A DNA stretch of 33,602 nt, taken from positions 1 through 33,602 of the forward strand of contig CAIXLU010000452.1 in the NCBI GenBank assembly GCA_903920315.1, in the 5' to 3' direction. Position numbers and translations under genes: made by a program. The notes beneath the pieces are model-generated. The model was not told where the DNA came from. It saw only the letters and a program-made list of their open reading frames with translations, and did no database searches. This document shows, piece by piece, positions 1,639 through 20,275 of the stretch. This DNA comes from an uncultured Oscillochloris sp. Its GTDB lineage: Bacteria; Chloroflexota; Chloroflexia; Chloroflexales; Chloroflexaceae. Position 1 is the stretch's first letter. Every line of letters begins with the position of its first letter.

Positions 1639-4600
1639 CTATTGAATACTCACCACACTCCCTGTACTGCCGACAAAGGGGTTGCCCAGCACATCCTTAT
1701 AGTCCGCCAGTAGGCTCACCCCGACAGGGCCGGTGGGCGTGCTTGCAGTGGTTATGAATGTCACGTTGCCCATCGGCGCCCCGGCGACAACGGTAGGCAC
1801 TGTGATTGTCAGGGTTCTCCCATCTGTGGACAGTGTGCAGGAGGAGGCACCACTACAACTCTTGTAGGTCAGGTTGATCGGCAGAGTGACGGTGAAGGTA
1901 GTGCCGACCGCCGCTCCCGCCGTGATTCCGCTTGATGTGTTTGTGTAGTTCGCCGTGAAGGTCAGGTCGTTGCCTACCAGCACCGTAGGCGAACTCGATG
2001 TCAGGCTCAGATCGAGCGCGGGGGTTCCTGGCTGCACGGTATAGCTAGCCTGATCGGTCTGGCCCTCCTGGATGTACTGGTTCTGAGAACCCGCAGTGTC
2101 TGTGCAGGTGACGATGCGCCACCAGCCTGATTCGGGGTTGGCAACAACATCACCGCCACGGGTAGCAGCATTCCCCCCGTTCCACTCGCCGTTAATAGAG
2201 GCCGCCCCTGCGATGCCGCCGGTATTCGCCAGCGGATCGTAGCTGGAACTCGGCGGGTAGTAGCGCACGCGTGCGGTCATCGCCGGGGGAGGGACGGGAT
2301 TGCTGTAGTCAAGATCGTAGTTATTGAAGGTTGCCGTCGCCTGACCCGGGCTCACATACTCGTAGAAGGTCGTACACTCATCGAGACCCCGAATGTGACG
2401 AAGCGTGTTCTGTAGGATGCCGACGGAGATTTCATCGCCGCTGCCGGGCAGCGCAGCAACACTGCTGTGTGCATTCGGTGCGGTTGGCGGGACGGTTGGC
2501 GCAACAACCTGCCAGCCTACCCGAATGCCCCAGCCATTGACATCATTGTCCGAGACCGACGCTCGTAGCAGGTAGGTGCCACAACCCGTGGGATCAATCA
2601 CGGGGCTTGCGGTGGCACTAATGGTCGCGAAGGTGTTCCAGAGACCACTCGTAGTGTCTGGAAGATAGTTTACCGTCTGTAGTAAATAGGTACTTAGCAG
2701 CGCTGGCGCTGGTACGTGCAGTCCGCTCGCGTCATAGCTCCAGCCCGTGGGCATCTTATAGAGATTGAAGGTTGTGTTGTCGGGGGGGGCACCGGGAGGA
2801 CCAACGAGTGGTGCCACCACCTCATCCGAAATCGCGGAATTGTTCGACGCTCCTACCGAAGCGGTATTCATCCCTGCGTCGTGTAGATCAATCTGGACAG
2901 GCGGCGGACTGGTGACCCCGCAGGGCACGTCAATCCGCATGTACGTATAGTTGGTACCACCACTGGCGTAGAAATTCCATTGGTTCCCATTAAGATAGTT
3001 CGGCCCAGCCGTTTGGAGAAAGCCCGCATCTGCGGTCGGCAATGCTTTGTCGTCATCAATGATCGCAACAGTGGCGGTAGTCCTGGCTGGATCAAGAGTG
3101 GCGCCTGTCGCCGTGCCAAGAACCACTGTGAAGACCTTGTCTGGCTGGGCGGTGGCGACAGGGATGATCGGCACAAGGATCGTCTTCTCGATTTCTCCTG
3201 CGATGAAGTTCAGTGGGCTTGGGAGATTCGTGTAGTCGGTAGGTGCTATTGCCGTACCATTTACCAGCGTATACGGCACGCTGATCGGGCTAGGAGCCGG
3301 CATACTCAGGCGTACCCGCAGCACCGCATTGCCATCAGTCTTACCCACGCTATAGGTGACGGCGCTAAAGCCCACCATCGGTATCGTTCCATCATCATTG
3401 GTGATCGTCCCCAGACCCTGGTTGTCGGCAATCACCACCGGGATCGTCCCATAAGTTAGACTCAACAACTGCACAGCGAAGGTCTCGTTCTGCTCGGGGA
3501 TGGCGTCGCCGATCACAGTTACCGTGATCGTGCCGGTTGTGTTGCCGAGTGAGGTCGTCGGGATGATGAGTGTACCGCTCGTTGCGGTATAGTCACTGCC
3601 CGCCGCAGCCGTCAGGTTGGCCGTCTTATAGGTTACGTTTACAGGCGCATCGGCGGGGTAGTCCAGGCTCACGGTGAAGGTGAATGCGGTGGTGGCGGAG
3701 GGAATCGAGGTTCCCTCAGCGAGCGTCACATCAGTGATTTTGAGTTTGATGGACGAATCATCGTTGAGGATCGTCCCCGTGCCGGTGCCGTTCGTCAGCG
3801 AGATCGCCCCCGCGCTCGCGCTAGTCAGCGTCAGCGTAAAGGTCTCATTCGCCTCATAGGTCGTGTCGCCGATGATGGGTACCACGATGGTCTGGCTTGT
3901 TGCGCCGATACCGATGTTTACCGTTCCTGCCACGAGCGGCGTGTAGTCGGCAGCCCCCGCCGCCGTCGTTGTATCAAAAGCCGTACCACTCACCGTCGCA
4001 CCATAGTTCACTGTCACCGGCGCGGTGATCGCCGACGCCTGCGCGTTCAGGCTCACCGTAAAGTTCATCGTCCCAGTGCCATTGCCCTCAGCCTGAGAAG
4101 GCGAATCAATGCTGGCGGTCAGCGTATCGTCGTTGAGGATTGTCCCCGTCCCGGTGCCGTTCGTCGCCGAAATCACCCCCGCACTCGTGCCGGTCAACGT
4201 CAATGTAAAGGTCTCATTCAGTTCATAGGTTGTGTCACCGATGATGGCCACCGGGGGGATAGCCTGACTTGTTGTCCCGGCACCAATGATCACAAATCCT
4301 GCCGCGAGTGGCGTATAGTCCGCAGCCCCCGCCGCCGTCGTTGTATCAAAAGCCGTACCACTCACCGTCGGCCCATAGTTCACCGTCACCGGTGCGGTGA
4401 TCGCCGATGCCTGTGCGTTCAGGCTCACTGTGAAGTTCATCGGTGTGGTACCGGGGCCGTTACCTTCATTCTGAGAGACCGAGTTAATGCTGGCGGTCAG
4501 CGTATCGTCGTTGAGGATTGTCCCCGTGCCGGTCGCCGAGGTGATTGGCACCGCAACCACCCCGACGGTTGCGCTAGTCAGCGAGATACTAAAGGTTTCA

Positions 4601-7600
4601 TCCAGCTCAAAAATCGTGTCGCCCAAGATCGTCACTGGGATGGTCTGTACCGTAACGCCGTTCGCAATAAAGGTGAATGTGCCAGCCGGAACGAATGTGT
4701 AGTCCGAGCCTGCCGTTGCGGTGCCATTTGCTGTAGCACCATAGTTCACCACCATAGTGTATCCCGTCGGCATTGGTGCCGAGAGCGTCACTGGGAAGTT
4801 CATCACCACGTTCGGTAGTAGGCCGTTCCCCTCGTTACTGGCTGGACTGCCGATGCTCACTGTCGGGAAGTCATCATTGGTGATCATCCCCGTACCCTGC
4901 GCACCGGCCAGCGTCACCGCGATTGCGCCGACGCCTGATGTCCGCAGGTTCGATAGCCGTACCAGAAATGTCTTGTCGGGTTCGGGAATGGTGTCGCCGG
5001 TCACATTGACCGTGATGGTGCCGCTCAGACTGCCCGCCGGGATCGTCAGCGTACCAGTGGCTGCCGTGTAATCGTTACCCGCTACGGTGGCTGTCTGATC
5101 AACCGTGGTGTAGTCCACGATCACATCTCTGGAGGCGATGTTGCTCAGGTTCACCGTGAAGATAAACGCGGTCGTGCCTGCGTTGCCCTCTGGCAGTGTG
5201 ACATTGGTAATCGTGACATTCGCCGTATCATTATCGAGATTGACTAGGCTCACCGTCTTCGGGAAACTACCGTTGTAAAGCGGGTCGCTGCCGCTGGCTG
5301 GGCCAATGCCGACGGTGTAGTTTATGTTCCCGTCAACCACAAAGTCATCTACGCCGGTGACGGTGACGGTCTGCGGGACGTTCCAGTTCGCGGCGGTAAA
5401 GGTCAGGCTGGCCGGGCTGACCGCACCCTCGGTGGTGTCGCTGCTGGCCAGCGGGATGGTGACATCTGCCGTCGGCTCGCTGTTCAGCCAGACGCTGAAG
5501 GTTGCCGCCCCACCTGCCTCGCTGGTTGTCCCGGTGGTTGTCGAAATGTTCACCCCGGCAACGTCATTATCGAGATTGACCAGGCTCACCGTCTTCGGGA
5601 AACTACCGTTGTAGAGCGGATCGCCACCGGTGGCGGGGCCAACACCGACGGTGTAGTTTATGTTTCCGTCAACCACAAAGTCATCTACGCCGGTGACGGT
5701 GACGGTCTGCGGGACGTTCCAGTTCGCGGCGGTGAAAGTCAGGCTGGCCGGACTCACCACACCCTCGGTGGTATCGCTGCTGGCTAGGGGGATGATGACA
5801 TCCGCCGTCGGCTCGCTGTTGAGCCAGACGCTGAAGGTCGCCGTGCCACCCGCCTCGCTGGTTGTTCCGGTCGTTGCCGAAATGTTCACCCCCGCCGTGT
5901 CGTTGTCGAGGTTGGTCAGGCTCACCGTCTTGGGGAAGGTGTTGTTGTAGAGCGGGTCGCCGCCGCTGGTCGGGCCAACGTTGACGCTGTAGGCCATATT
6001 CCCGTCAACCACAAAGTCATCTACGCCGGTCACGGTGACGATCTGTGGGACGTTCCAGTTCGCGGCGGTGAAAGTCAGGCTAGCCGGACTGACCACACCC
6101 TCGGTGGTATCGCTGCTGACTAGGGGGATAGTGACAGTGGCCGTCGGCTGACTGTTCAGCCAGACACTGAAGGTCGTCGTCCCCCCAGCCTCACTGGTCG
6201 TTCCGGTCGTTGCCGAGATGTTCATCCCCGCCGTGTCATTATCAAGGTTGACCACGTTCACCGTTTGGGTGAGAGTGCCGCCATAAAGCAGGTCGGTACT
6301 GCTGGTTGGGCCGACAGTGACGGTGTAGTTTATGTTCCCGTCAACTACAAAGTCATCCACCCCGGTCACGGTGACGGTCTGCGGTGTGTTCCAGGTGGTT
6401 GGTGTAAAGGTCAGGCTGGCCGGACTCACCGTGCCCTCAGTCGTGTTGCTGCTGATCAGCGGGATGGAGACAGTCGCCGTCGGCTGGCTGTTCAACCAGA
6501 CGCTGAAAGTCATCGTACCCCCGGCCTCGCTGGTTGTTCCACTTGTTGCCGAAAGGTTCACCCCCGCCGTGTCATTATCAGAATTGCTCAGGCTAACAGG
6601 CGTGATTGCCATGCCGCTGTAGAACGGATCGGCGCTGCTGGTTGGGCCAACGCTGACGGTGTAGGCCACAGGCCCGTCAACCACAAAGTCGTCTACACCG
6701 GTCACGGTGACGGTCTGCGGGACGCTCCAGTTCGCGGCGGTGAAGGTCATGCTGGCCGGACTCACCGTGCCCTCAGCCGTGTTACTGCTGTCCAGCGCAA
6801 TCGTGACATTCGCCGTTGGCTCGCTTGTCAGCGCCACGCCAAAGGTCGCCGGGCCGCCCGACTCCGTCGTGACCAGCCCGCTGGTCGGGCTGACCGTGAT
6901 CCCGGCGGTGTCGTTATCGGTGATGTTCGCGCCCACACGGGCAACGGTCATCGCGTTGTAATTCGGATCCGCGCTCGCGGTGCTGTGCGTGATCTGGCGG
7001 AAGTCTGGGTTCTCGGCAATCGCGTCGTCAAACGCCGAGACCGTTACCGTCTGCGGTTGATTCCAGTTTCCTGGCGTGAAGGTCAGGCTCAACGCGGAAA
7101 GAGTGGGCGCAGGCGTACCGATGCGCAACTGAGCATCGGCGCTAACCGCAATCATCACATCGGCGATGGGTTGGCTGCCCAGTTCTACGGTATAGGTGGA
7201 GGTCTGCCCACCCTCTGTCAGACTCAACGATGTGGCCGGTGTCACGATCACCCCGGCGCTGTCGTTATCAATGTTCGTCAGCGTAATGGTTTTTAGTCCA
7301 AGGCCGTTGTACACCGCCGAGCTACTGCTGGTCGGGCCGACCTGCACGCGGTAGACTCTATCGCCATCGGCAACCGCATCATTTACGCCGGTGACGGTGA
7401 CGGTCTGTGGCACATTCCAGTTCGCAGCCGTGAAGATCAGGCTCGCCGGGCCAACCGTCCCCTCGCCTACGTTATCACTGGAGATCGGCACCGTGACATC
7501 CGCCAGAGGTTGCCGAGTCAGCGCCACCTTGAATGTGACGGTATCGAGGTTCTCGCTGGTGGTGGTGCCGCTCTGCGCCAAGATCGTCAGATCGGGCGGA

Positions 7601-9981
7601 ACATCGTTATCTATGATCTGCACCGTGGCGAGCGCAATTGTGAGCGGGCGATAGAGTGGATCGGCGCTGTCCACACTAAAGGTGATGTTTCCGCTATGCG
7701 GCCCCTCGGCGATCAGATCGTCAACCGCCGACACCGTGATGATTCGGGCCGTATTCCACGTGTCGGGCGTGATCGTCAGCACCGTACTGGCCAACCCGTC
7801 CACATACAGTTTGGCATCGGCAGTAGCGGTAATCACCACCGTGTCCGTCGGCTGACTGTCCAGCGCCACGCGAATGGTTGCGGTTGCCCCACCCTCCGTC
7901 ACCGCCCCACTGACGGGATCAGCGGTAATCCCGGCGGTATCGTTATCAATGTTCGTCAGATTGACAGTGCGCGCCGCCACACTGCGGTAAATCGCGTCGG
8001 CATCGCTGGCGGGGCCAACGCTGACGGTATACGCGATATTTCCATCATCAACGAAATCATCCGCGCCGGTGACGGTGACGAGTTGCGCTGCATCCCAGGT
8101 AGTCGGCGTGAAAGTCAGGCTGGCCGGACTCACCGTACCCTCGGTCAGATCATTGCTCGTGATCGGGATGGTGACATTCGCCGTCGGTTCGCTATTGAGC
8201 CACACCTTAAGGGTGACACTGCCGCCTGCCTCGCTGGTGCTGCTGCTCCCGAGGATCTCAACATTCACCCCACCAACATCGTTGTCATCATTTGTTAGCG
8301 GGCCGATTGTCCGTGCGAACTTCCCGCCATAGAAGGGATCGGTACTCACGGCTGGCACAAGCTGCACCGCATAGGTGATTGGGCCATCTACCACGAAATC
8401 ATTCACGCCGGTGACGGTGACGGTTTGCAGAACTTTCCAGTTCGCGGCGGTGAAAGTGAGGGTAGTCGGACTCACCGTGCCTTCGGTCGTATCGCCACTG
8501 GTGATCGGGACAATCACATTGGCGGTGGGCTGACTATTCAGCCACACGCTGAAAGTGATGCTGCCACCAGACTCGCTGGTGCTGGTGCCGCTCAGGGCCG
8601 AGACATACACCCCGGCGGTGTCATTATCGGTAACGGTGATGATCGCCGACGTGCCGCGAGAGGCATTTGTCGGCGAGCCAAGAGTGGCACTGATCGTCTC
8701 AACGTTCTCTGCAACCTGATCATTGATAATCGCGAAGGGCAGGCGCACTTTCTGGACACCAGCGGGAACCACCACCGTGCCACTGCTCAGGCCACTATAA
8801 TCGCTTCCTGCCATTGCGCTACCACCGATGATATAGGGCACCGTCACATCATAGGCGCTCGGTTGGCTCAGGACAATCCAGAAGGCGGTGCGGCCCACGC
8901 TCTCGCTCACCGAACCGGCGTCGGCAACCAGGTTCACCACTGGCGGCGCACTCGCGTCAATAATCGTCAGGGTCGCCGTTTCCGTGCCGCCAAAGGTCGC
9001 GCCACTAGGCGCACTGAGCGTAATGAATGCGATCTCGTCCCGTTCCTTAATCGCGTCCGGGAGAATCGTCATCGTAATCGCCGCAGTGTTTATACCAGGC
9101 GGGAAGTAGAGTGTGCCGCTCGTTGCCAGATAATCCTGGCCAACCCCGGCTTTCGCGCTCCCATTGCTGGTTGCATAATGCACACTCACCGTATTCGTTC
9201 GCGAGGCACCAGCGGGCTGGATAGAAACATTGACCACTGCTGTCGCCACGCCCTGGGCCTCATTTGCTGAGATCGCGGATGATGCGAAGGCCAGCGTCAC
9301 CGCCGGGGTTGCCGTGGCCGTCGCCGTGGCCGTGGCCGTACTCGTCGAAATCACGATCTGGGTTGGCGTGGCCACATTGCCCGTCGTTTTGGTAAGCGTC
9401 GGCGTAGCCGTGCGTGTCGGCGTCGTTGTCGGTGTATGTGTCGTTGTCGGCGTCGGCGTAGACGTGGCAGGAACAGTAGCGGTTACGTCGCCGGGGTTGC
9501 TGATCGGGGTTAAGCTGGGGCTTATGTAGCCAATATTCCGCGTCGGTGTCGGGATTAGCGTCTGCACAATCGCGGTCGGCACGCGAGTAAGTGTGCGCGT
9601 GGAGACAGATACTGGGCGCGCTGTGGCAACCGTAGCGGTAGGCGAGGGACTTGGCGTAGGTGAGGGACTGGCTGTTGCGGTCGGCTCCTGGCTTGGGACA
9701 AGAATCTCCACCACCGGCTGGCTCTGGGAAGGCCCGGTATTCGTGGCGGGGCCATGTATCGTCTCTTCTGGGGGCGCAGCGGCAGCGGGCAGGGGAGCGG
9801 GAAGAATCGGGACATCACCACTCGCCCAAAAGCTATAGTCTCCCCGTCCTCTCGCAGACAGATTACCTTCATACATCATCACACGCGGCTCAACAAGAAG
9901 GAGCGCATAGCGCGCAATACAACTGACCGCGACGAGCGCGATCAGCATCGCCAACAGGATCAGCCAGGGCAGCGGACGCAT
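1639..9981 (-). CDS. Giant surface-anchored Calx-beta repeat protein
   Basis: About 2780 residues from the chosen ATG at 9981, 16 bp after the kinase stop. A longer reading from ATG 10050 would overlap the kinase by 53 bp and has no clear ribosome site. Residues 5-30 are a hydrophobic signal or signal-anchor segment. Residues about 50-227 are a Pro/Thr/Ser-rich stalk with TPTPT and TATATA runs. Two Calx-beta domains follow (228-450), then ten related modules of about 112 residues (450-1587) marked by VTVTGVDDFV and NDTAG, then six more Calx-beta domains (1587-2325) ending in NDD. A unique region (2325-2650) and a DUF11-like beta domain (2650-2780) close the protein. Calx-beta domains are extracellular folds that often bind calcium through acidic residues. 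A role in adhesion or cell-cell contact is inferred. No LPXTG or autotransporter end is seen. Confidence 0.9.
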   Translation of the reverse strand: MRPLPWLILLAMLIALVAVSCIARYALLLVEPRVMMYEGNLSARGRGDYSFWASGDVPILPAPLPAAAAPPEETIHGPATNTGPSQSQPVVEILVPSQEPTATASPSPTPSPSPTATVATARPVSVSTRTLTRVPTAIVQTLIPTPTRNIGYISPSLTPISNPGDVTATVPATSTPTPTTTHTPTTTPTRTATPTLTKTTGNVATPTQIVISTSTATATATATATPAVTLAFASSAISANEAQGVATAVVNVSIQPAGASRTNTVSVHYATSNGSAKAGVGQDYLATSGTLYFPPGINTAAITMTILPDAIKERDEIAFITLSAPSGATFGGTETATLTIIDASAPPVVNLVADAGSVSESVGRTAFWIVLSQPSAYDVTVPYIIGGSAMAGSDYSGLSSGTVVVPAGVQKVRLPFAIINDQVAENVETISATLGSPTNASRGTSAIITVTDNDTAGVYVSALSGTSTSESGGSITFSVWLNSQPTANVIVPITSGDTTEGTVSPTTLTFTAANWKVLQTVTVTGVNDFVVDGPITYAVQLVPAVSTDPFYGGKFARTIGPLTNDDNDVGGVNVEILGSSSTSEAGGSVTLKVWLNSEPTANVTIPITSNDLTEGTVSPASLTFTPTTWDAAQLVTVTGADDFVDDGNIAYTVSVGPASDADAIYRSVAARTVNLTNIDNDTAGITADPVSGAVTEGGATATIRVALDSQPTDTVVITATADAKLYVDGLASTVLTITPDTWNTARIITVSAVDDLIAEGPHSGNITFSVDSADPLYRPLTIALATVQIIDNDVPPDLTILAQSGTTTSENLDTVTFKVALTRQPLADVTVPISSDNVGEGTVGPASLIFTAANWNVPQTVTVTGVNDAVADGDRVYRVQVGPTSSSSAVYNGLGLKTITLTNIDNDSAGVIVTPATSLSLTEGGQTSTYTVELGSQPIADVMIAVSADAQLRIGTPAPTLSALSLTFTPGNWNQPQTVTVSAFDDAIAENPDFRQITHSTASADPNYNAMTVARVGANITDNDTAGITVSPTSGLVTTESGGPATFGVALTSEPTANVTIALDSSNTAEGTVSPASMTFTAANWSVPQTVTVTGVDDFVVDGPVAYTVSVGPTSSADPFYSGMAITPVSLSNSDNDTAGVNLSATSGTTSEAGGTMTFSVWLNSQPTATVSIPLISSNTTEGTVSPASLTFTPTTWNTPQTVTVTGVDDFVVDGNINYTVTVGPTSSTDLLYGGTLTQTVNVVNLDNDTAGMNISATTGTTSEAGGTTTFSVWLNSQPTATVTIPLVSSDTTEGVVSPASLTFTAANWNVPQIVTVTGVDDFVVDGNMAYSVNVGPTSGGDPLYNNTFPKTVSLTNLDNDTAGVNISATTGTTSEAGGTATFSVWLNSEPTADVIIPLASSDTTEGVVSPASLTFTAANWNVPQTVTVTGVDDFVVDGNINYTVGVGPATGGDPLYNGSFPKTVSLVNLDNDVAGVNISTTTGTTSEAGGAATFSVWLNSEPTADVTIPLASSDTTEGAVSPASLTFTAANWNVPQTVTVTGVDDFVVDGNINYTVGIGPASGSDPLYNGSFPKTVSLVNLDNDTANVTITNVTLPEGNAGTTAFIFTVNLSNIASRDVIVDYTTVDQTATVAGNDYTAATGTLTIPAGSLSGTITVNVTGDTIPEPDKTFLVRLSNLRTSGVGAIAVTLAGAQGTGMITNDDFPTVSIGSPASNEGNGLLPNVVMNFPVTLSAPMPTGYTMVVNYGATANGTATAGSDYTFVPAGTFTFIANGVTVQTIPVTILGDTIFELDETFSISLTSATVGVVAVPITSATGTGTILNDDTLTASINSVSQNEGNGPGTTPMNFTVSLNAQASAITAPVTVNYGPTVSGTAFDTTTAAGAADYTPLAAGFVIIGAGTTSQAIPPVAIIGDTTYELNETFTLTLTGTSAGVISATNGTGTGTILNDDTLTASIDSPSQAEGNGTGTMNFTVSLNAQASAITAPVTVNYGATVSGTAFDTTTAAGAADYTPLVAGTVNIGIGATSQTIVVPIIGDTTYEANETFTLTLTSASAGAISLTNGTGTGTILNDDSSIKLKITDVTLAEGTSIPSATTAFTFTVSLDYPADAPVNVTYKTANLTAAAGSDYTATSGTLIIPTTSLGNTTGTITVTVIGDAIPEQNETFAVQLLSLTYGTIPVVIADNQGLGTITNDDGTIPMVGFSAVTYSVGKTDGNAVLRVRLSMPAPSPISVPYTLVNGTAIAPTDYTNLPSPLNFIAGEIEKTILVPIIPVATAQPDKVFTVVLGTATGATLDPARTTATVAIIDDDKALPTADAGFLQTAGPNYLNGNQWNFYASGGTNYTYMRIDVPCGVTSPPPVQIDLHDAGMNTASVGASNNSAISDEVVAPLVGPPGAPPDNTTFNLYKMPTGWSYDASGLHVPAPALLSTYLLQTVNYLPDTTSGLWNTFATISATASPVIDPTGCGTYLLRASVSDNDVNGWGIRVGWQVVAPTVPPTAPNAHSSVAALPGSGDEISVGILQNTLRHIRGLDECTTFYEYVSPGQATATFNNYDLDYSNPVPPPAMTARVRYYPPSSSYDPLANTGGIAGAASINGEWNGGNAATRGGDVVANPESGWWRIVTCTDTAGSQNQYIQEGQTDQASYTVQPGTPALDLSLTSSSPTVLVGNDLTFTANYTNTSSGITAGAAVGTTFTVTLPINLTYKSCSGASSCTLSTDGRTLTITVPTVVAGAPMGNVTFITTASTPTGPVGVSLLADYKDVLGNPFVGSTGSVVSIQ
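3757..4516 (-). repeat. Tandem duplication of a Calx-beta domain, unit about 370 bp
   Basis: Two adjacent Calx-beta domains are almost the same at DNA level. Landmarks such as ATCGTCGTTGAGGAT recur at about 3757, 4126 and 4504, and both units encode LTASI, FTVSLNAQASAITAPVTVNYG and TYE-NETFTLTLT. The copies differ by scattered substitutions and a few codons. It is a second duplication, separate from the 336-bp block. Confidence 0.8.
5220..6900 (-). repeat. Five tandem coding repeats of exactly 336 bp inside the Calx-beta gene
   Basis: The marker GTCAACCACAAAGTC (with one-base variants) occurs at 5332, 5668, 6004, 6340 and 6676, always 336 bp apart, which equals 112 codons. The units are very similar at DNA level, most of all those at 5220-5900. 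The other five modules of the same family, at 6900-8630, are more diverged and vary in length. This indicates recent expansion or gene conversion of the central block. Confidence 0.88.
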
Positions 9982-9997
9982 ATTACTGCGCCGATAC

Positions 9998-12271
9998 TCA
10001 GGCAGATGCTGCAAGGGCGGTAAGAGATTTTTCAGTGCTGGTTGTCGCATTGGCGTAGCGCAACGTAAAGTAGAAGGTGCTGCCCTCCCCAGGCGCACTC
10101 TTCATCCAGATCATACCACTTTGTCGCTCAATGAGTTGTTTACAAATAGCCAGACCGAGGCCGATGCCGCGCTCAGATGAGTTAATTCCCTCGCTCGCCC
10201 CGTCGCCACGGACAAATCGCATAAATACCTGCTCGTGCATATCGGGCGAGATGCCCCTGCCCGTATCTTGAACCTCAACCAGCATATGCTCAGGCATCGC
10301 CGTGGCGCGCAGGATAATCCCACCCTCGCTCGTATAGCGTCGGGCGTTGTCGAGGAGTTGGTGCACGATCATCCGCACCTGATCGTAATCGGCCAGCACC
10401 TGCGGAAGATCTTTGGCTACCTCAATCTTCAGGCTGAGCCCCTTTGCCTTGATGAAACTCTGAAGCGGCCAAGTGGCATCATCAACCGGGCGACTTAGAT
10501 CGACCGCCTCAAGATCGGTGGTAAGCGAACCCGAGTCCATGCTCGCAATCACAATCACATTGCTGATCAGGCTGGTCATATTGGTCGCGTGCTGACGGAT
10601 AGAGTCAACAAAGACCTTCTGGTCATCGTCCAGAGGGCCAGCCAGTCCGCGCATCAGCAGGTCAGAATTGCCACGGATCACCGTAAGCGGCGTACGCAAC
10701 TCGTGAGAGATCGTGCCGATGAAGTTTGTCTTGGCCCGATCCATCGCCACCTCCTCGGTCATGTCTTGCAACACGCAGACCGAGCCGAAGTGCTGGCCGC
10801 TGGGTGCCACCACCGATTTTGCCGTCGCACGCACAATCCGCTCCCCCAGGGAGAAGAGGTTGTTGGCGCGCTGGCTACCAAACCCCGGCACGCCATCGGT
10901 CAGCTTCACCAGGGGAATATCGTCAAACAAGATCGGCAGCGGATCAGCAGCGCTGATGTTAAGGAACTGACGGGTGGCCTGGTTGATCAGGACGATCCGC
11001 CCCTCGGTATCACAGACGACAATCCCGTCTCCGATACTCTCGACGATAGCGGCGCGCTGTGTATACTCGTTCTGCACCTGATCATAGAGACTGGTCAGGT
11101 GACCGGTCATCGAGTTAAAGCTACGTGCCAGTACCCCGATCTCGTTGAGCGACTGAATATGGACGCGACGGGTCAGATCGCCGGCGGTGATCGCCTCGGC
11201 GGTGGTAGCCAGATCTCCTAACGGCGCAGTGATCCGATTGGCGGTGATCACACCAACGCCAATCAGCAGGCCAACCAGCGCCACCACAATCAGAGTCATT
11301 GGCCAGAGTGTGCTGGTATTGGCTTCATAGGCGTAGTCACGCGAGAGGGCCGGAGCGAGAATACCTACAGAGGTGCCACGGATGGTGAGGGGAATATAGG
11401 CAAACTGGAACTTACGACTGTCCAGCGTCTCGGTGCTGAAAAGGGTAAGTTCGCTCGTGCTAGCCTTGAATGCATCCATCAGTTCCGCGCTCATGGATGG
11501 CAGTTTGACACCGGTCGCGCTGAAAGTTGAGGCTAGCAGATGACCCGTATCGTCATAGAGTGTTATCCCGGCAGACTGGGAGCGCAACGCCAGCATACTG
11601 AGCAGACCATCGCTGCCATCAACCCGGATGGCGGCAATCAGACCACCCACCACATCTTTGCCCTGGCGCACCGGGGAGATCGTCGCAAAGTACAGCGTGC
11701 TGGTTTCGCTATTGGTCGTTTTAAACTGAAGCAGGCCCGCGTACTTATCACCACGGCTGTCGCCCAGGCTGGTAAGTACGCGCTGAGTAAACCACGCCTT
11801 CGAGAGATCAAAGGACGGGTGTACAATGAAATCTCTGTTGGAGGTACCCGACGTCCGCTCAAAATCGGTGACTGTTTGCCCGTTGCTATCAAAGGCAATT
11901 AGGCGATCCAGGCTCACTCCGCTGCGGCTGATACCCACGCGGAAGAATGGATCGAGCGCAGCTTTAAGCCCTTTGACATCCTTCTTAGCGAAGGCTTCGG
12001 CAACCCCCGGCGCACCCGTGTTCTGATTACCTTGAGCAAAAGCAACCTCACGCAGGAACTGGAGATTGGCCTGCTCCTGGCTCAGCAGAACATCATTGGT
12101 TGTGCGCGCCACCGAGGCAAGTTGGTTATTGAAGCGCTCCTGCAACGAGCTGGAAGTCTGATAAAAGACCACAGCCGAACCTACCACCGCTACAAGAACG
12201 GTGAGGAACAGAAACGGTCCGATAATCTGATAGCGGAGCTGTGAGCGTAGCCCCCGCAGTGCCCCTTGCAT
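9998..12271 (-). CDS. Membrane sensor histidine kinase (Cache-like, HAMP, PAS, HisKA, HATPase)
   Basis: This is a 757-residue protein with all expected parts in order. A transmembrane helix at about 16-37 is followed by an extracytoplasmic double-Cache-like sensor (40-320) and a second helix at about 323-345. Then come HAMP (346-400) and a PAS domain (about 405-505). The HisKA box ISHELRTPLTVIRG carries the phospho-acceptor His523. The ATPase domain has N-box Asn642, G1 DTGRGIS (669-675) and G2 GIGLGLA (702-708). Such kinases sense small molecules outside the cell and phosphorylate a separate response regulator. No regulator gene adjoins it, so the partner is elsewhere. It lies just upstream of the giant Calx-beta gene on the same strand with a 16-bp gap, so the two are likely co-transcribed. 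Confidence 0.94.
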   Translation of the reverse strand: MQGALRGLRSQLRYQIIGPFLFLTVLVAVVGSAVVFYQTSSSLQERFNNQLASVARTTNDVLLSQEQANLQFLREVAFAQGNQNTGAPGVAEAFAKKDVKGLKAALDPFFRVGISRSGVSLDRLIAFDSNGQTVTDFERTSGTSNRDFIVHPSFDLSKAWFTQRVLTSLGDSRGDKYAGLLQFKTTNSETSTLYFATISPVRQGKDVVGGLIAAIRVDGSDGLLSMLALRSQSAGITLYDDTGHLLASTFSATGVKLPSMSAELMDAFKASTSELTLFSTETLDSRKFQFAYIPLTIRGTSVGILAPALSRDYAYEANTSTLWPMTLIVVALVGLLIGVGVITANRITAPLGDLATTAEAITAGDLTRRVHIQSLNEIGVLARSFNSMTGHLTSLYDQVQNEYTQRAAIVESIGDGIVVCDTEGRIVLINQATRQFLNISAADPLPILFDDIPLVKLTDGVPGFGSQRANNLFSLGERIVRATAKSVVAPSGQHFGSVCVLQDMTEEVAMDRAKTNFIGTISHELRTPLTVIRGNSDLLMRGLAGPLDDDQKVFVDSIRQHATNMTSLISNVIVIASMDSGSLTTDLEAVDLSRPVDDATWPLQSFIKAKGLSLKIEVAKDLPQVLADYDQVRMIVHQLLDNARRYTSEGGIILRATAMPEHMLVEVQDTGRGISPDMHEQVFMRFVRGDGASEGINSSERGIGLGLAICKQLIERQSGMIWMKSAPGEGSTFYFTLRYANATTSTEKSLTALAASA

Positions 12272-14719: not shown

Positions 14720-15631
14720 CTATGTTCGCAGGGCCGGGTTGAGCTTGGTGGCGGCGAGCCACGCCTCGATCCCAACCGTGGGCTGAATCCCCTGCTCGGT
14801 GACGATTCCGGCCAAAATATTTAGCGGCGTCGAGTCAAAGTAGACGTTTGTCACCTGGATGTTTGCCGGTACCTCGGGCCAGACCTGATCGGCAGGCCAG
14901 CGAGTCTGCTCAGGCTGAGGATAGCCAGGGGGAAGAAATTTCTCGGAGCTACAGAGGGCGTAGACCGGCACGTTAGCCTCCCTCGCCGCAAGCACCATGC
15001 CGTAGGTTCCCACCTTATTCATCAGGCCGCGAACACTCAAGTGGTCGGCCCCGACCAGAACAAGCTGAGACTGACCGGCCAGGACCACAGCGAGGGCATC
15101 TACCACTAAGGTTGTTGGGATGCCACTAGCTGCCAGTTCGCTGGCCATCGTGCGACCCTCGCAGATAGGGCGTCCTTCAGCGCAGATCACACGGAAGCGC
15201 CGACCAGCCCGCTGGGCGTGGCGCAACACCGCACGCACCGTTGTGCTGCGCCCGTTCGTTACGATCTGCACGTCATCGCTGATCAACCGCAGAGCCGTCT
15301 CAGCGATGGCCGCCTCGTGGACGTGCAGGCGCCGCTTGAACTCATTTGCCGCATCAACCACGACCCGCTGGCCCTGGCCAAAGCTCTCCGCAGCGTCCAT
15401 CTTCCAGAGCAGCGCATTCACCAAATTCACCAGCGGTGCCATCGTCGGATGCGAGCGAATCAGCGCCCAACCCACCTCAAGCAACCCCTGATGCAAATGG
15501 AAGAGATCGCCGCTCTGATCCGCCTGCGCCTGATATATGAGTGCCTCAGCGCTCCTCTCGGCGATTTCAACCGCGCCGGAGATCCCGTCTTTGGCGATAG
15601 CAGCGATTGCCTGTGCGGTGTACTTATCCAC
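14720..15631 (-). CDS. eIF2B alpha/beta/delta family protein
   Basis: The 303-residue protein starts at GTG 15631, with GGAAGAA (15636-15642) as ribosome site. It matches the family of eIF2B regulatory subunits, methylthioribose-1-phosphate isomerase and ribose-1,5-bisphosphate isomerase: an N-terminal helical bundle (1-110), a Rossmann-like part with GAD at 195-197, NKVGTY at 205-210 and the end motif NVYFDSTPLN at 262-271. Catalytic isomerases carry a cysteine in a THC motif at the first strand. Here the equivalent place reads TNGRS (125-129), so the cysteine is absent while Asp196 is kept. It may therefore bind a sugar phosphate or nucleotide without being an isomerase, or use other residues. 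Hairpins with CACAGAA motifs flank the gene on both sides. Confidence 0.85.
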   Translation of the reverse strand: MDKYTAQAIAAIAKDGISGAVEIAERSAEALIYQAQADQSGDLFHLHQGLLEVGWALIRSHPTMAPLVNLVNALLWKMDAAESFGQGQRVVVDAANEFKRRLHVHEAAIAETALRLISDDVQIVTNGRSTTVRAVLRHAQRAGRRFRVICAEGRPICEGRTMASELAASGIPTTLVVDALAVVLAGQSQLVLVGADHLSVRGLMNKVGTYGMVLAAREANVPVYALCSSEKFLPPGYPQPEQTRWPADQVWPEVPANIQVTNVYFDSTPLNILAGIVTEQGIQPTVGIEAWLAATKLNPALRT

Positions 15632-15680
15632 AAAGTTCTTCCAATCGTACTATATAGGGTAACGAGACTTTCGCGATTCA

Positions 15681-15741
15681 TGGCCAAAGAAAGACGCGGA
15701 AGCCCACAGAAAGACTGTGCTTTCCGTGTTCTTCTGTGGCA
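15681..15741. repeat. Imperfect hairpin related to the 14657 array
   Basis: CCAAAGAAAGACGCGGAAG (15683-15701) pairs imperfectly with CTTTCCGTGTTCTTCTGTGG (15720-15739), and an inner CCACAGAAAG copy lies between them. The wording resembles the hairpin at 14657-14709. It lies upstream of the eIF2B-like gene, in the gap before the transposon. A possible -10 box for that gene (TATATA, minus strand, 15651-15656) lies just below it. Confidence 0.5.
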
Positions 15742-15810
15742 GAATTTCATGGTCGCACTTCGAGTACCGTATCACCGGTGCGGCCTATGACGAGCATACC
15801 ACAGTTTCGT

Positions 15811-15852
15811 TTACGGAAGTAGCCCGTAAAGCCCAGGAGCTTTAGCCCTGAG
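15811..15852 (+). other. Transposon left end with target TTAC, guide AAAG and hairpin
   Basis: Target TTAC (15811-15814) is followed after 13 bases by guide AAAG (15828-15831) and a hairpin: CAGG 15834-15837 with CCTG 15847-15850, and an inner GC-TTTA-GC. The right end has the same hairpin wording (AGCTTTAGC loop), which supports the pairing of the two ends. Confidence 0.8.
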
Positions 15853-15889
15853 ATATAAGGGCTTCACCCGCGTGAGCGGCTTTAGCTTC

Positions 15890-15918
15890 TTGACGAACGG
15901 GCGTGCGTATAGTATACT
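15890..15918 (+). promoter_or_regulatory. tnpA promoter
   Basis: TTGACG (15890-15895) and TATACT (15913-15918) are separated by exactly 17 bp, each one base from the sigma-70 consensus. The start point would be near 15925, about 22 bases before the tnpA ATG at 15947. It lies inside the transposon left end, so the element carries its own promoter. Confidence 0.7.
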
Positions 15919-15946
15919 GTCTGTATATATCTATCATAGGCGGTAT

Positions 15947-16360
15947 ATGGAAATCAGGCAAACGAACAAACCCTACCATACCGATCACAGCATCGTCTTT
16001 AGCTGTCAGTACCATGTGATCTTCTGCCCGAAGTATCGACGGAAGGTTCTGAACGAGCCTATTGCTGCTCGTATGAAGGAACTGGTACGTGCGAAGCAGG
16101 CCGAGTATGGCTACACGATCATTGAAATGGAAGTCATGCCTGATCATGTCCATCTCCTCTTGGACGCCGACCCTCGGGAGGGCATTCTTGGGATTGTGGC
16201 GAAGATCAAGGGCTATACCTCCCATGAACTGCGCAACGAGTTTCCCTGGCTCAAGAAACGCTTACCCACGCTGTGGACGCGCAGCAAGTTCATCTCAACC
16301 GTAGGAGCCGTCACATTGGATGTGGTGAAGCAGTACATTGAAGACCAAAAGAGCGTCTGA
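15947..16360 (+). CDS. tnpA: IS200/IS605 TnpA, single-strand Y1 transposase
   Basis: The 137-residue protein starts at ATG 15947 (MEIRQTNKPY). An in-frame extension upstream would run through the promoter and left end, so it is rejected. The HUH metal motif is His67-Val-His69 in MPDHVHLLLD, and the single catalytic tyrosine is Tyr130 in VVKQYIEDQ. Length and motif positions are standard for active family members. As a dimer, the enzyme cuts single-stranded transposon ends through a 5'-phosphotyrosine link, excising a circle and inserting it 3' of a short target, here TTAC. The stop TGA overlaps the tnpB ATG by one base, so translation is probably coupled. No inactivating change is visible. 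Confidence 0.96.
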   Translation: MEIRQTNKPYHTDHSIVFSCQYHVIFCPKYRRKVLNEPIAARMKELVRAKQAEYGYTIIEMEVMPDHVHLLLDADPREGILGIVAKIKGYTSHELRNEFPWLKKRLPTLWTRSKFISTVGAVTLDVVKQYIEDQKSV

Positions 16361-17478
16361 TGAGCCGCAAGAGTTTCAAATACCGGATCTACCTCTCGAA
16401 CGGCCAACGGCGCATCCTTGAGCAGCAGCTTGAGTTGAGCCGTTGGGCCTACAACGAGACACTTGCCGAGCGCAAGCGGGCGTATGAGGAACGCGGCGAG
16501 AGTCTGCGCTTGTACGACACGCAGGCGTTGCTGCCGGTCTGGAAGCTGACCAAGCCCGCGTTGAAGCTTGTCCACAGTCAGGTACTCCAGAACATCAGCG
16601 TGCGGGTGGATCTCGCCTTTCAGGCATTCTTTCGTCGGGTGAAGGGGGGTGCTGCTGAGGTTGGTTTCCCCAGGTTCAAGGGCTTCGGTAGGTATGATTC
16701 GCTGACGTACCCGCAATACGGCAACGGGGTGCGGTTGGAGGGTGAGCGGCTGATCCTCTCGAAGATGGTTGGGGCCGTGCATGTCGTCTTGCACCGCCCG
16801 TTGAAAGGCACGCCCAAAACCGTGACGCTCACCCGGTCGCGCACGGGCAAGTGGTTCGCCTGTTTCTCGTGCGAGACGGAGGCCGAGCCGCTGCCGCCAA
16901 CCGACGCCGCAGTGGGCGTGGATGTGGGGCTGTCGTCGTTTGCCACCCTCTCGGATGGAGGGAAGAAGATCGATAACCCGCGCTTCTATCGGCGCGACGA
17001 GGCCGACCTGAAACGTGTCCAACAGCGCAAGGATGCGGCCAAGAACGCTCAAAACTGGCCGGAGAACGTCAAACAGAAGGGCATTCTGGCCCGCATCCAC
17101 GAGCGGATCGCCAACCGGCGCAGCGACTTCGCCCACAAGGAGAGCCGCACGCTGGTGAACCGCTATCAGGTGATCGTGTGTGAAGACCTTGCTCCGATGG
17201 AGATGGGCCGAAGTCGCGGGATGCGCAAAAGCATCATGGATGTGGCGTGGACACAGTTCATCCGCATGACCGTCGCCAAAGCGGCAGAAGCTGGGCGGCG
17301 GGTAATTCTGGTGAACCCCCGCAATACGACCAAGATGTGTTCGACCTGCGGCGAGATTGTCTCCAAGGCGTTGAGCGTGCGCGTCCATACCTGCCCCCAC
17401 TGCGGGCTGGTGATGGATCGAGATGAGAACGCAGCGATCAACATTCTGCAACGGGGACTTCTTTCGCTACAAACCTGA
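16360..17478 (+). CDS. tnpB: TnpB, RNA-guided RuvC nuclease of the IS605 family
   Basis: The 372-residue protein is near the usual length of compact TnpB. The N-terminal part (1-175) is the wedge and REC-like region. The RuvC triad is intact: Asp188 in GVDVGLSSF, Glu275 in IVCEDLAP and Asp353 in DRDENAA. The zinc ribbon has CSTC (327-330) and CPHC (345-348). Family members bind an RNA made from the 3' end of tnpB and the right end, and cut DNA next to a TAM that equals the left target site (here TTAC). This helps keep the element after excision. All key residues are present, so activity is plausible. The gene starts within the tnpA stop codon. Confidence 0.96.
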   Translation: MSRKSFKYRIYLSNGQRRILEQQLELSRWAYNETLAERKRAYEERGESLRLYDTQALLPVWKLTKPALKLVHSQVLQNISVRVDLAFQAFFRRVKGGAAEVGFPRFKGFGRYDSLTYPQYGNGVRLEGERLILSKMVGAVHVVLHRPLKGTPKTVTLTRSRTGKWFACFSCETEAEPLPPTDAAVGVDVGLSSFATLSDGGKKIDNPRFYRRDEADLKRVQQRKDAAKNAQNWPENVKQKGILARIHERIANRRSDFAHKESRTLVNRYQVIVCEDLAPMEMGRSRGMRKSIMDVAWTQFIRMTVAKAAEAGRRVILVNPRNTTKMCSTCGEIVSKALSVRVHTCPHCGLVMDRDENAAINILQRGLLSLQT

Positions 17479-17539
17479 CTCTGTGGGATGGGGCGGCATC
17501 CCCGTGAAGCCCAAGAGCTTTAGCCTTGGGAGCCGTCAC
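17400..17539 (+). ncRNA. Predicted omega (right-end) guide RNA of TnpB
   Basis: In known systems this RNA covers the last part of tnpB and the right end, and its guide is the DNA just outside the element. Here the scaffold would end at 17539 and include two hairpins: GGGATG 17485-17490 with CATCCC 17497-17502, and CCCAAG 17510-17515 with CTTGGG 17525-17530. The guide would begin at 17540 (CGATTGTTGGAACCAATG). The 5' boundary is a guess. The RNA is inferred from family knowledge and these structures. Confidence 0.5.
17504..17539 (+). other. Transposon right end with guide GAAG, hairpin and TCAC
   Basis: Guide GAAG (17506-17509) sits at the foot of hairpin 17510-17530, followed by five bases and the cleavage site TCAC (17536-17539). 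TCA at 17536-17538 is also the reverse complement of the TGA stop of the hybrid kinase on the minus strand. Confidence 0.8.
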
Positions 17540-19974
17540 CGATTGTTGGAACCAATGGAACGCCGCTTCAGCAACTGTTTGATTACCACCTCAAGCTGGG
17601 CGATAGAGAAGGGCTTTGGCAAATAAGGGTTCCCGCTCCGCTCAAGTTGTTCAAGAGTGATCGGGCTCAGTGTATCACCTGTGATAAAGATCACCCGCTC
17701 GGCCAGGTCGAGGTCGCGCTCGCGGATGATGGACAGAAGCTCAAATCCGCTCATGCCCGGCATCCGCACATCGGTAAGAACCATGTCGAAGGATTCGCGG
17801 CTCAGGGCGACAAGTGCGGTTTCGCCACTGATCGTCACCGTCGAGCGGTGGCCGAGGTCGTGCAAAAGGCGTGAGATCAGACGAATCACAGGCTCCTCAT
17901 CATCCACGACGAGGACGTTGAGCGATGGTTCTATCTCGCTGATGACCGAATCCAGCAGAGCGGGTTGCTCAGTTATCATAACGGGAAGTTGGCGGACGGG
18001 CAGATCAACGAAAACACGTGTCCCCAAACCAATTTGGCTCTCAGCCCAGATCCGGCCCTCATGCTCCTTCACAATACCGAAGCAGATTGAGAGCCCGAGA
18101 CCAGTGCCTTGCCCTATCGGTTTCGTCGTAAAAAAGGGGTTAAATATCTTACGCAGATTACGTTCGGGGATACCCACACCCGTGTCGCCCACCTCTATCT
18201 GGATCATCTGCCCTCCAACCTCGTCCTCAGGACGAGTCGGCACCACCCGCGTGCGCAGGGTGAGCGTGCCGTGTCCACCACGCTCAACCATCGCGTGGCG
18301 TGCATTGGTGATCAGATTCAGGAAGACCTGCTGGAGCTGATGTGGGTCGGCCACCGTCTGAACGAGGTCTGGGTCGAGGTCGAGCTGTACCGCGATATTA
18401 TCAACCCGCAATTGATATGACTGAAGGGCAAGGGAGTCGCGCAGCACCGCATTGAGTGCCACCATCGAGCGTTCAGGCGTATGCTCACGAGCAAAGATCA
18501 GCAGGTTCTGGACGATCCTGGACGCTCGATCAGCCTGGGTGTGGATTTGCTCAATATCTTGGCGGATATCGTCGGAGAGGTGCGTATTACGCAAGGTGAG
18601 CTGGGCGTAGCCACTCACGCTGGTGAGCGGATTATTCAACTCATGGGCCACACCAGCAACTAATTGGCCAATCGCCGAGAGTTTCTCCGACTGGATGAGC
18701 TGCTGCTCCATGCGACGGCGTTCGGTCAGGTTGCGCGCAATACAGTGGAGACCTCCGGGCTTACCTCCGCCATTCTGCATCATGTGGGCGCTCACCTCCA
18801 AGTAGATCGGCTCCTGATTATGGTGCGCCAGCTCAAGTTCGAAGGGTAGCACTGCCTGTCCATCGAGCAAGTTACGCAGATGAACCTGCGCCGCTCTCCA
18901 CGAGTCGGGGGCGCAAAGCGACCAGATCGGCTGGCCAATCAGATCTTGTACGGGGTAGCCGGTGATCTGCGCACCAACTTTATTCACGCTCGTGATGCGC
19001 AGATCGCGGTCAAGCATAAAGATCATATCGTAGGCGTTCGCGAAGAGATCTTTGTAGCGCCGCTCGCTCAGCTTCACCTGCTCGTAGAGTCGGGCATTCT
19101 CAATCGCAATTGCCGCATAGTCGGCCAGTGTCGCCAGCAGATATTGGTCATTTTCACTGAATACCCGGTCGGACTGCTGATTATCCACCGCCAGCACACC
19201 CACCACCTGGTCGCCCACCATCAAAGGAACCTGAAGGATCGCCCGTACGAGAAACCCTGTCTTCACCTTTAAGGCCACACCGTTGCGAGTCCTATCGGTG
19301 CGGATCGGCTTACCTGTGCGGACGACCTGGCCTGCTAGGGTATCGTGAATCGCCATGCGTAGACTCTGGGCGCGCTGCTCGCCAAGGTTCTTCGCCGCCC
19401 GCAGGTACAGCTCGTCGTGCTGGTTATCGCGCAGCAGCAGGAAGCCCTCTTCGGCCTGGGTAATATAGACACCGGCCTCAACGATTCGCTCAAGCAGTTG
19501 TTCCTGCTCCATCAGGCCAGTTACCGATTTACCAATACGCGAGAGTACGGTAAGTTCCTGGACGCGCTGCTGGAGCGAGGCGGTAAGACGTTCCTTATCG
19601 CGGCGCAGGCGACGCTCACGCAGAGCTTGGTCAATCACCGCCCGCGCCTCGGTGTCAGAGAATGGCTTGATCAGATAATTCCGTGCGCCGAGGCGGAACG
19701 CCTCAACCGCGATATTCTCCGATCCGTGGGCGGTCATCAGAATGACCGGCACATCATAGCCTTCTTGAGCGATCAGGCGGAGGAGGTCAAGGCCAGAAAT
19801 ATCGGGGAGTTGGAGATCGAGCAGGATCATATCAGGCAAGCGGTCACGAAGGCGCTGAAGCCCCTGACGCCCGGTATTTGCGACAATCGGGCGGTATCCA
19901 AGCTCAGGCAGCACATAGTTCGCGAGAAGCCCGCAGATCTGCTCGCTGTCATCAATGATGAGGATCTCTTCCAT
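17536..19974 (-). CDS. Hybrid sensor kinase: REC, GAF, PAS, HisKA, HATPase, REC
   Basis: The 812-residue protein has no membrane segments, so it is cytoplasmic. The first receiver domain (1-120) has acidic Asp8/Asp9, phospho-site Asp53 and Lys103. A short coil leads to GAF (about 140-300) and PAS (about 305-420). HisKA has His444 in GVAHELNNPL. The ATPase part has Asn557, DTGVGIP (597-603) and GTGLGLS (623-629). The second receiver (685-800) has Asp691/Asp692, phospho-site Asp735 and Lys787. The two receivers suggest a phosphorelay hub, with the first receiver taking signal from another kinase. No partner adjoins it. Its TGA stop lies in the last four bases of the neighbouring transposon, and removal of the element restores the same end (SNNR) with TAA. 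Confidence 0.95.
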   Translation of the reverse strand: MEEILIIDDSEQICGLLANYVLPELGYRPIVANTGRQGLQRLRDRLPDMILLDLQLPDISGLDLLRLIAQEGYDVPVILMTAHGSENIAVEAFRLGARNYLIKPFSDTEARAVIDQALRERRLRRDKERLTASLQQRVQELTVLSRIGKSVTGLMEQEQLLERIVEAGVYITQAEEGFLLLRDNQHDELYLRAAKNLGEQRAQSLRMAIHDTLAGQVVRTGKPIRTDRTRNGVALKVKTGFLVRAILQVPLMVGDQVVGVLAVDNQQSDRVFSENDQYLLATLADYAAIAIENARLYEQVKLSERRYKDLFANAYDMIFMLDRDLRITSVNKVGAQITGYPVQDLIGQPIWSLCAPDSWRAAQVHLRNLLDGQAVLPFELELAHHNQEPIYLEVSAHMMQNGGGKPGGLHCIARNLTERRRMEQQLIQSEKLSAIGQLVAGVAHELNNPLTSVSGYAQLTLRNTHLSDDIRQDIEQIHTQADRASRIVQNLLIFAREHTPERSMVALNAVLRDSLALQSYQLRVDNIAVQLDLDPDLVQTVADPHQLQQVFLNLITNARHAMVERGGHGTLTLRTRVVPTRPEDEVGGQMIQIEVGDTGVGIPERNLRKIFNPFFTTKPIGQGTGLGLSICFGIVKEHEGRIWAESQIGLGTRVFVDLPVRQLPVMITEQPALLDSVISEIEPSLNVLVVDDEEPVIRLISRLLHDLGHRSTVTISGETALVALSRESFDMVLTDVRMPGMSGFELLSIIRERDLDLAERVIFITGDTLSPITLEQLERSGNPYLPKPFSIAQLEVVIKQLLKRRSIGSNNR

Positions 19975-20275
19975 AAATGGTGGTGCTGTTACTGCCCAAG
20001 GCGCTACTTACGATAATGACCCACTACTCGATGGTATGTTGGTAGGAGTGTCACATGGCTTTGAATTGTACCCTGTTACGATAGCGGTGGCAAGGGATTG
20101 TCCTTATATGGTGGGCCACATCAAAGTCACCCGTCAGGAGATTCAGTCTCCCGTGCAGTGGATGAGCGACCCTGGGCGAATTGCTGTTATCATAGGCTCA
20201 GTTTTTTCAGGGGCACGGATCAACAATCAACAATCAACAATCAGCAATCGGCAATCAGCAATGGGGGAGGGAGCG
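19975..20275. other. Divergent intergenic region between hybrid kinase and oxidoreductase
   Basis: About 300 bp. Bases 20219-20261 hold a 7-bp tandem array, and GGGGGAGGGAG before 20276 is the ribosome site of the next gene. A reading frame continues through the region from the kinase side but has no family features before the ATG at 20276. Promoters for both genes must lie here, yet no pair of boxes stands out. Confidence 0.5.
20219..20261. repeat. 7-bp tandem array (ATCAACA)
   Basis: Six units in register: three ATCAACA, then ATCAGCA, ATCGGCA, ATCAGCA, ending in AT. It is one-armed, with no inverted partner. It ends within a few bases of the ribosome site of the quinone oxidoreductase. Confidence 0.85.

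Follow-up and report, generated by a model that had tools for sequence, protein, structure and literature searches.

Can the end of a transposon take the place of a stop codon while the protein stays as it was, and could this make gene ends safe landing sites for a whole family of elements? The question is raised by a stretch of 33,602 nucleotides from an uncultured Oscillochloris sp. (the window), in which a complete element of 1725 bp (15815–17539, plus strand) runs into the 3' end of an opposing gene encoding a hybrid histidine kinase of 812 amino acids (17536–19974, minus strand; receiver, GAF, PAS, HisKA, HATPase and receiver domains). The kinase frame closes with AAC AAT CGG TGA (SNNR and stop), and its TGA is the complement of 17536–17538, where the element ends in TCAC; the stop codon of the kinase is thus supplied by the element, as the preliminary description had it. 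The element now lies between the kinase and the next gene downstream on the same strand (14720–15631, minus strand), recognised as an open reading frame only. Elsewhere in the window, we noted a single repetitive open reading frame of 2819 amino acids (1639–10098, minus strand), which contains many similar internal blocks and adjoins a histidine kinase-like frame, and short tandem TCAACAA/TCAGCAA-like units at 20220–20262, upstream of a quinone oxidoreductase-like gene (named by eye).

The element has the anatomy of the IS200/IS605 group. Reading along the plus strand, the host flank provides TTAC (15811–15814), the left cleavage and target tetranucleotide and the complement of G-TAA. Then come GTAA (15826–15829), the exact complement of TTAC and placed 5' of the left hairpin, tnpA (15947–16360, 137 amino acids; Pfam Y1_Tnp, E 1.3e-39) and tnpB (16360–17478, 372 amino acids; Cas12f1-like_TNB, 2.3e-23, and OrfB_IS605, 6.1e-19). 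GTGA (17504–17507), the exact complement of TCAC, precedes a hairpin CCCAAG-loop-CTTGGG read from the letters (17510–17530), which is followed by the right cleavage site TCAC (17536–17539) and, from 17540, by the host right flank beginning with CGATTG. By Pfam, TnpA is a Y1 HUH transposase and tnpB belongs to the IS605 group; in the TnpA translation, HVH and the tyrosine of KQYIEDQ are presumably the Y1 HUH transposase motif. Compared with shuffled sequences as folded DNA, the left end is the more stable (z -2.5), the right end being weak (z -1.3), and an Rfam scan of 15600–17700 gave no matches. By analogy with IS608, whose guides occupy the same position (PMC5934647, excerpts), GTAA and GTGA are candidate left and right guides, each matching its cleavage site in the window element. 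Other copies carry TTGA, GTAA or AGGA at the right-guide position; in those ending in TATTTCAC it is mostly AGGA (13 of 16), which is not complementary. Similarity between copies ceases 0 to 11 bases beyond TCAC in the alignments listed, except for c42, where a separate repeat lies farther out, which is independent support for the right boundary. In the 23 copies whose left end could be identified, the target reads TTAC in 16, TTAT in 5, and CTAC and TTAA in one each; when the pattern is relaxed, CTGC/GTAG takes the place of TTAC in one of them. One copy, L186, combines the target CTAC with a left guide GTAG, a paired change relative to TTAC/GTAA, and its original stop would be TAG. A sister subfamily (L207, L211, L214, L230) shares the hairpin loop and ends in TGAC instead of TCAC, which would give no stop on the opposite strand in this phase; given enough copies, it would be a natural control.

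Joining TTAC to CGATTG, as if the element were removed, gives AAT CGG TAA on the minus strand. The joined flanks align without a gap across the junction with four of the five congeneric kinases that lack the element (L010, L011, L012 and L013), the fifth, L014, showing a gap, and no bases are duplicated at the junction. Insertion 3' of a fixed tetranucleotide was therefore precise, and the C-terminus of the kinase is native: L010 and L011 likewise end in SNNR, and the other three in SNNP, SSDR and STN. That the protein came through the insertion unchanged, as first proposed, is thereby borne out, and unchanged proteins suggest that such insertions would be neutral.

The preliminary description had called for a count of family copies on in-phase stops. 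We searched 41 genomes of the family for right ends and found 45 in 10 genomes, of which 43 could be scored (two dropped, with flanks of 119 and 0 bp); two later sets added 12 scored copies from the family and 42 from other Chloroflexota (two of 44 dropped, with 0 and 108 bp). Seven listed places were left out as likely chance matches (G186:C15, G055:C1, G056:C109, G045:C16, G377:C1, G154:C85 and G212:C455). Genes were called with a simple home-made caller, for which 783 kb of congener tiles served as the training set and which also underlies the TTAC null. By this one caller, and unadjusted for shared ancestry of copies, the right end coincides with the stop codon of an opposing gene in 22 of the 97 scorable copies (13/43, 3/12 and 6/42), the rest of the first set falling within genes (5) or elsewhere (25). 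Only one pair, L328 and L333, has right flanks that resemble each other over most of their length, and neither is on a stop. Long frames with no match in Pfam (c3, c20, c21 and c41) were not taken as genes, the caller giving no stop gene there; c12, an uncalled frame of 252 codons ending at TGA, was also left out of the count.

Against this, 36 of the 1390 TTAC sites in the congener tiles lie on stops and 914 in genes, so that stops make up 36 of 476 non-coding sites; the separate null for the distant set gives 27 and 987 of 1687, and 27 of 700. Relative to non-coding TTAC, copies are in excess on stops (pooled Mantel-Haenszel odds ratio 5.9, p = 1.5e-11), with 13 of 38 non-coding copies in the first set, 3 of 10 in the further family copies (p = 0.039) and 6 of 33 in the other Chloroflexota (p = 0.0024). 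With so many copies in the same arrangement, the kinase case is not a matter of chance. The excess is not explained by a pyrimidine being favoured just after TTAC, since the subset with one at +1 still differs (11/28 versus 20/220, and 4/17 versus 16/359), nor by a longer T-rich target, the share of stops being lower for TTTAC (6 of 149 non-coding sites). Landing on stops is not confined to G-TAA, since one copy on a stop has CTAC (stop TAG) and another TTAT (A-TAA). Among the copies from other Chloroflexota, only two had a left target that could be read, and it resembles TTAT, for which the share of stops is lower still.

The genes so ended are for the most part recognisable: 17 of the 22 score above the Pfam cut-off, 3 have weak matches and 2 none. 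Besides the kinase, three have congeneric orthologues that end at the same place, namely c32 (beta-lactamase-like; LKK or LEK in 3 of 5 orthologues, with stops TAG, TAG and TGA, the other two differing), c38 (an NMT1-type binding protein; FIK or FIQ in 5 of 5, with stops TAG, TAG, TAA, TAA and TAG) and c28 (a thioesterase; RRQR or RRQK in 4 of 4, with stops TGA, TAG, TGA and TGA). For c5, only paralogues at about 39% identity were found.

Gene ends might simply be safe space, with copies gathering anywhere downstream of genes and exact overlap with the stop being unimportant. Few copies indeed lie inside genes (16/97; 7/55 and 9/42 in the family and distant sets, a depletion relative to the TTAC sites), and TTAC is frequently intergenic. 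Yet 22 copies lie exactly on the stop and only 7 within 0–100 bp past the end of a convergent gene, whereas the corresponding numbers of TTAC sites are 63 and 95 (odds ratio 4.7, p = 4e-4). Stops are thus preferred over sites just beyond them, so that gene-end safety falls short of a full account, and we regard safe space by itself as a possible but doubtful explanation.

The history of the kinase stop itself is less simple than first thought. The preliminary description held that insertion had swapped TAA for TGA; the element-free kinases of all five congeners do share the end point, but all five stop with TGA, with TCAC at the motif position in four and TCAA in L014, never TTAC, and none of the empty alleles found has TAA. 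Over the longer term, the stop has therefore not passed from TAA to TGA, and a TAA before insertion, suggested by the left flank alone, would be a short-lived intermediate. Either TGA mutated to TAA, creating TTAC, and insertion restored TGA, or the left flank changed from TCAC to TTAC later. In the latter case TAA would never have stood at the end of the kinase: entry would have been at the ancestral TCAC, with mutation of the left flank afterwards. Both orders involve a single substitution, and TGA in all congeners would fit entry at TCAC; however, no readable copy has TCAC as its left target, against 16 of 23 with TTAC, and the candidate guide GTAA pairs fully with TTAC, so that we think entry at TCAC unlikely. 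If TTAC came first, an element-free allele should read CGG TAA and then AACGAAACTGTGG, where the later flank mutation predicts CGG TGA.

It could also be argued that right ends serving as stops are kept by selection while others decay beyond our search pattern, and a few of the copies on stops are indeed remnants with little past the right end (c36, c37 and L306). A search of the genus that did not ask for TCAC, however, gave 44 right ends, 39 of them with TCAC (the other five being four TGAC, from another subfamily, and one TTAC), and of the copies whose left target is readable and whose right flank can be scored, 7 of 21 are on stops; such a bias is very unlikely to lie behind the pattern. 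Least likely of all is that TnpB, guided by the right flank, which at a stop would be the conserved 3' coding end of the gene, keeps and spreads the element there as in the gene drive reported for plasmids (PMC11870625, excerpts): the share of stops is similar with and without remains of TnpB (10/34 and 9/40 non-coding copies of known type), which led us to reject TnpB homing as the cause, and the congeneric kinase alleles do not offer TTAC at the motif.

We think it likely that the pattern reflects single-strand insertion at TTAC over an opposing stop, selection against copies that break genes, and a right end that is itself a stop in phase. An IS200/IS605-type element would use the single-strand route and enter 3' of a TTAC lying across the stop of the opposing kinase. 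The target TTAC would remain on the left, and TCAC would replace it against the coding sequence, so that G-TAA becomes G-TGA, with a new stop triplet and the same last residue and length. Purifying selection would then clear copies from gene bodies, leaving those on stops to survive. Inside an opposing gene TTA never occurs in the replaceable phase, because there it is a stop; the replaceable phase thus exists only at gene ends. Selection and the in-phase TGA would account for survival at stops and for much of the excess. The residual excess may be due to selection against parting genes from their 3' signals, to target capture or to error in the null.

The closest model among characterised elements is IS608 (ISHp608), which also combines a Y1 TnpA with TnpB, has guides 5' of its hairpins and inserts 3' of a TTAC kept on the left, preferably followed by C (PMC5934647, excerpts). 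The complement of its right cleavage site, TCAA, also holds TGA in the same phase; TCAC, however, keeps the base before the stop, where TCAA would change G to T, and the guides of IS608 are AAAG and GAAT, whereas the candidate guides here are full complements. Stop supply by the termini of repeats moved by related enzymes has already been reported: GTAG REP palindromes, small and tied to Y1 transposases, often give flanking frames their TAG stop (PMC3733652, excerpts). These repeats are short and go with a REP-associated transposase (RAYT), whereas here we have a complete tnpA-tnpB unit with ends TTAC/TCAC, replacement of a stop in phase by a different triplet, and a measured excess. Stem-loops of IS605B likewise lie at the 3' ends of Borrelia lipoprotein genes, one overlapping 8 nucleotides of coding sequence; these are remnants only, and the excerpts of PMC2775950 describe no in-phase replacement of a stop. 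Nine mini-elements of 46–47 bp, measured from left target to TCAC and consisting of fused ends only (L167, L176, L179, L183, L188, L192, L193, L197 and L201; two at stop positions), resemble the PATEs of Haloquadratum, terminal-only IS605 derivatives of 52 bp, for which stop codons at insertion sites are not mentioned in the excerpts of PMC3119063. Our literature search returned no report of an IS605-family insertion replacing stop codons, the nearest being the REP statement in the excerpts of PMC3733652.

One might speculate, although we hold it to be rather unlikely in this full form, that these are stop-substituting transposons, with a right end shaped as an in-phase stop matching the complement of the target and with a single cost-free site on the coding strand, the stop of an opposing gene, and that something beyond survival, either target capture or RNA effects at the 3' end, favours stops. 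With this finding, the places open to a very common transposon family in compact genomes can be put as a simple, countable rule, and target specificity is linked to the phase of the genetic code. It also warns annotators that the boundary of an insertion sequence can be a genuine gene end, and opens to test which of RNA-guided TnpB, selection and target capture governs where these elements are found.
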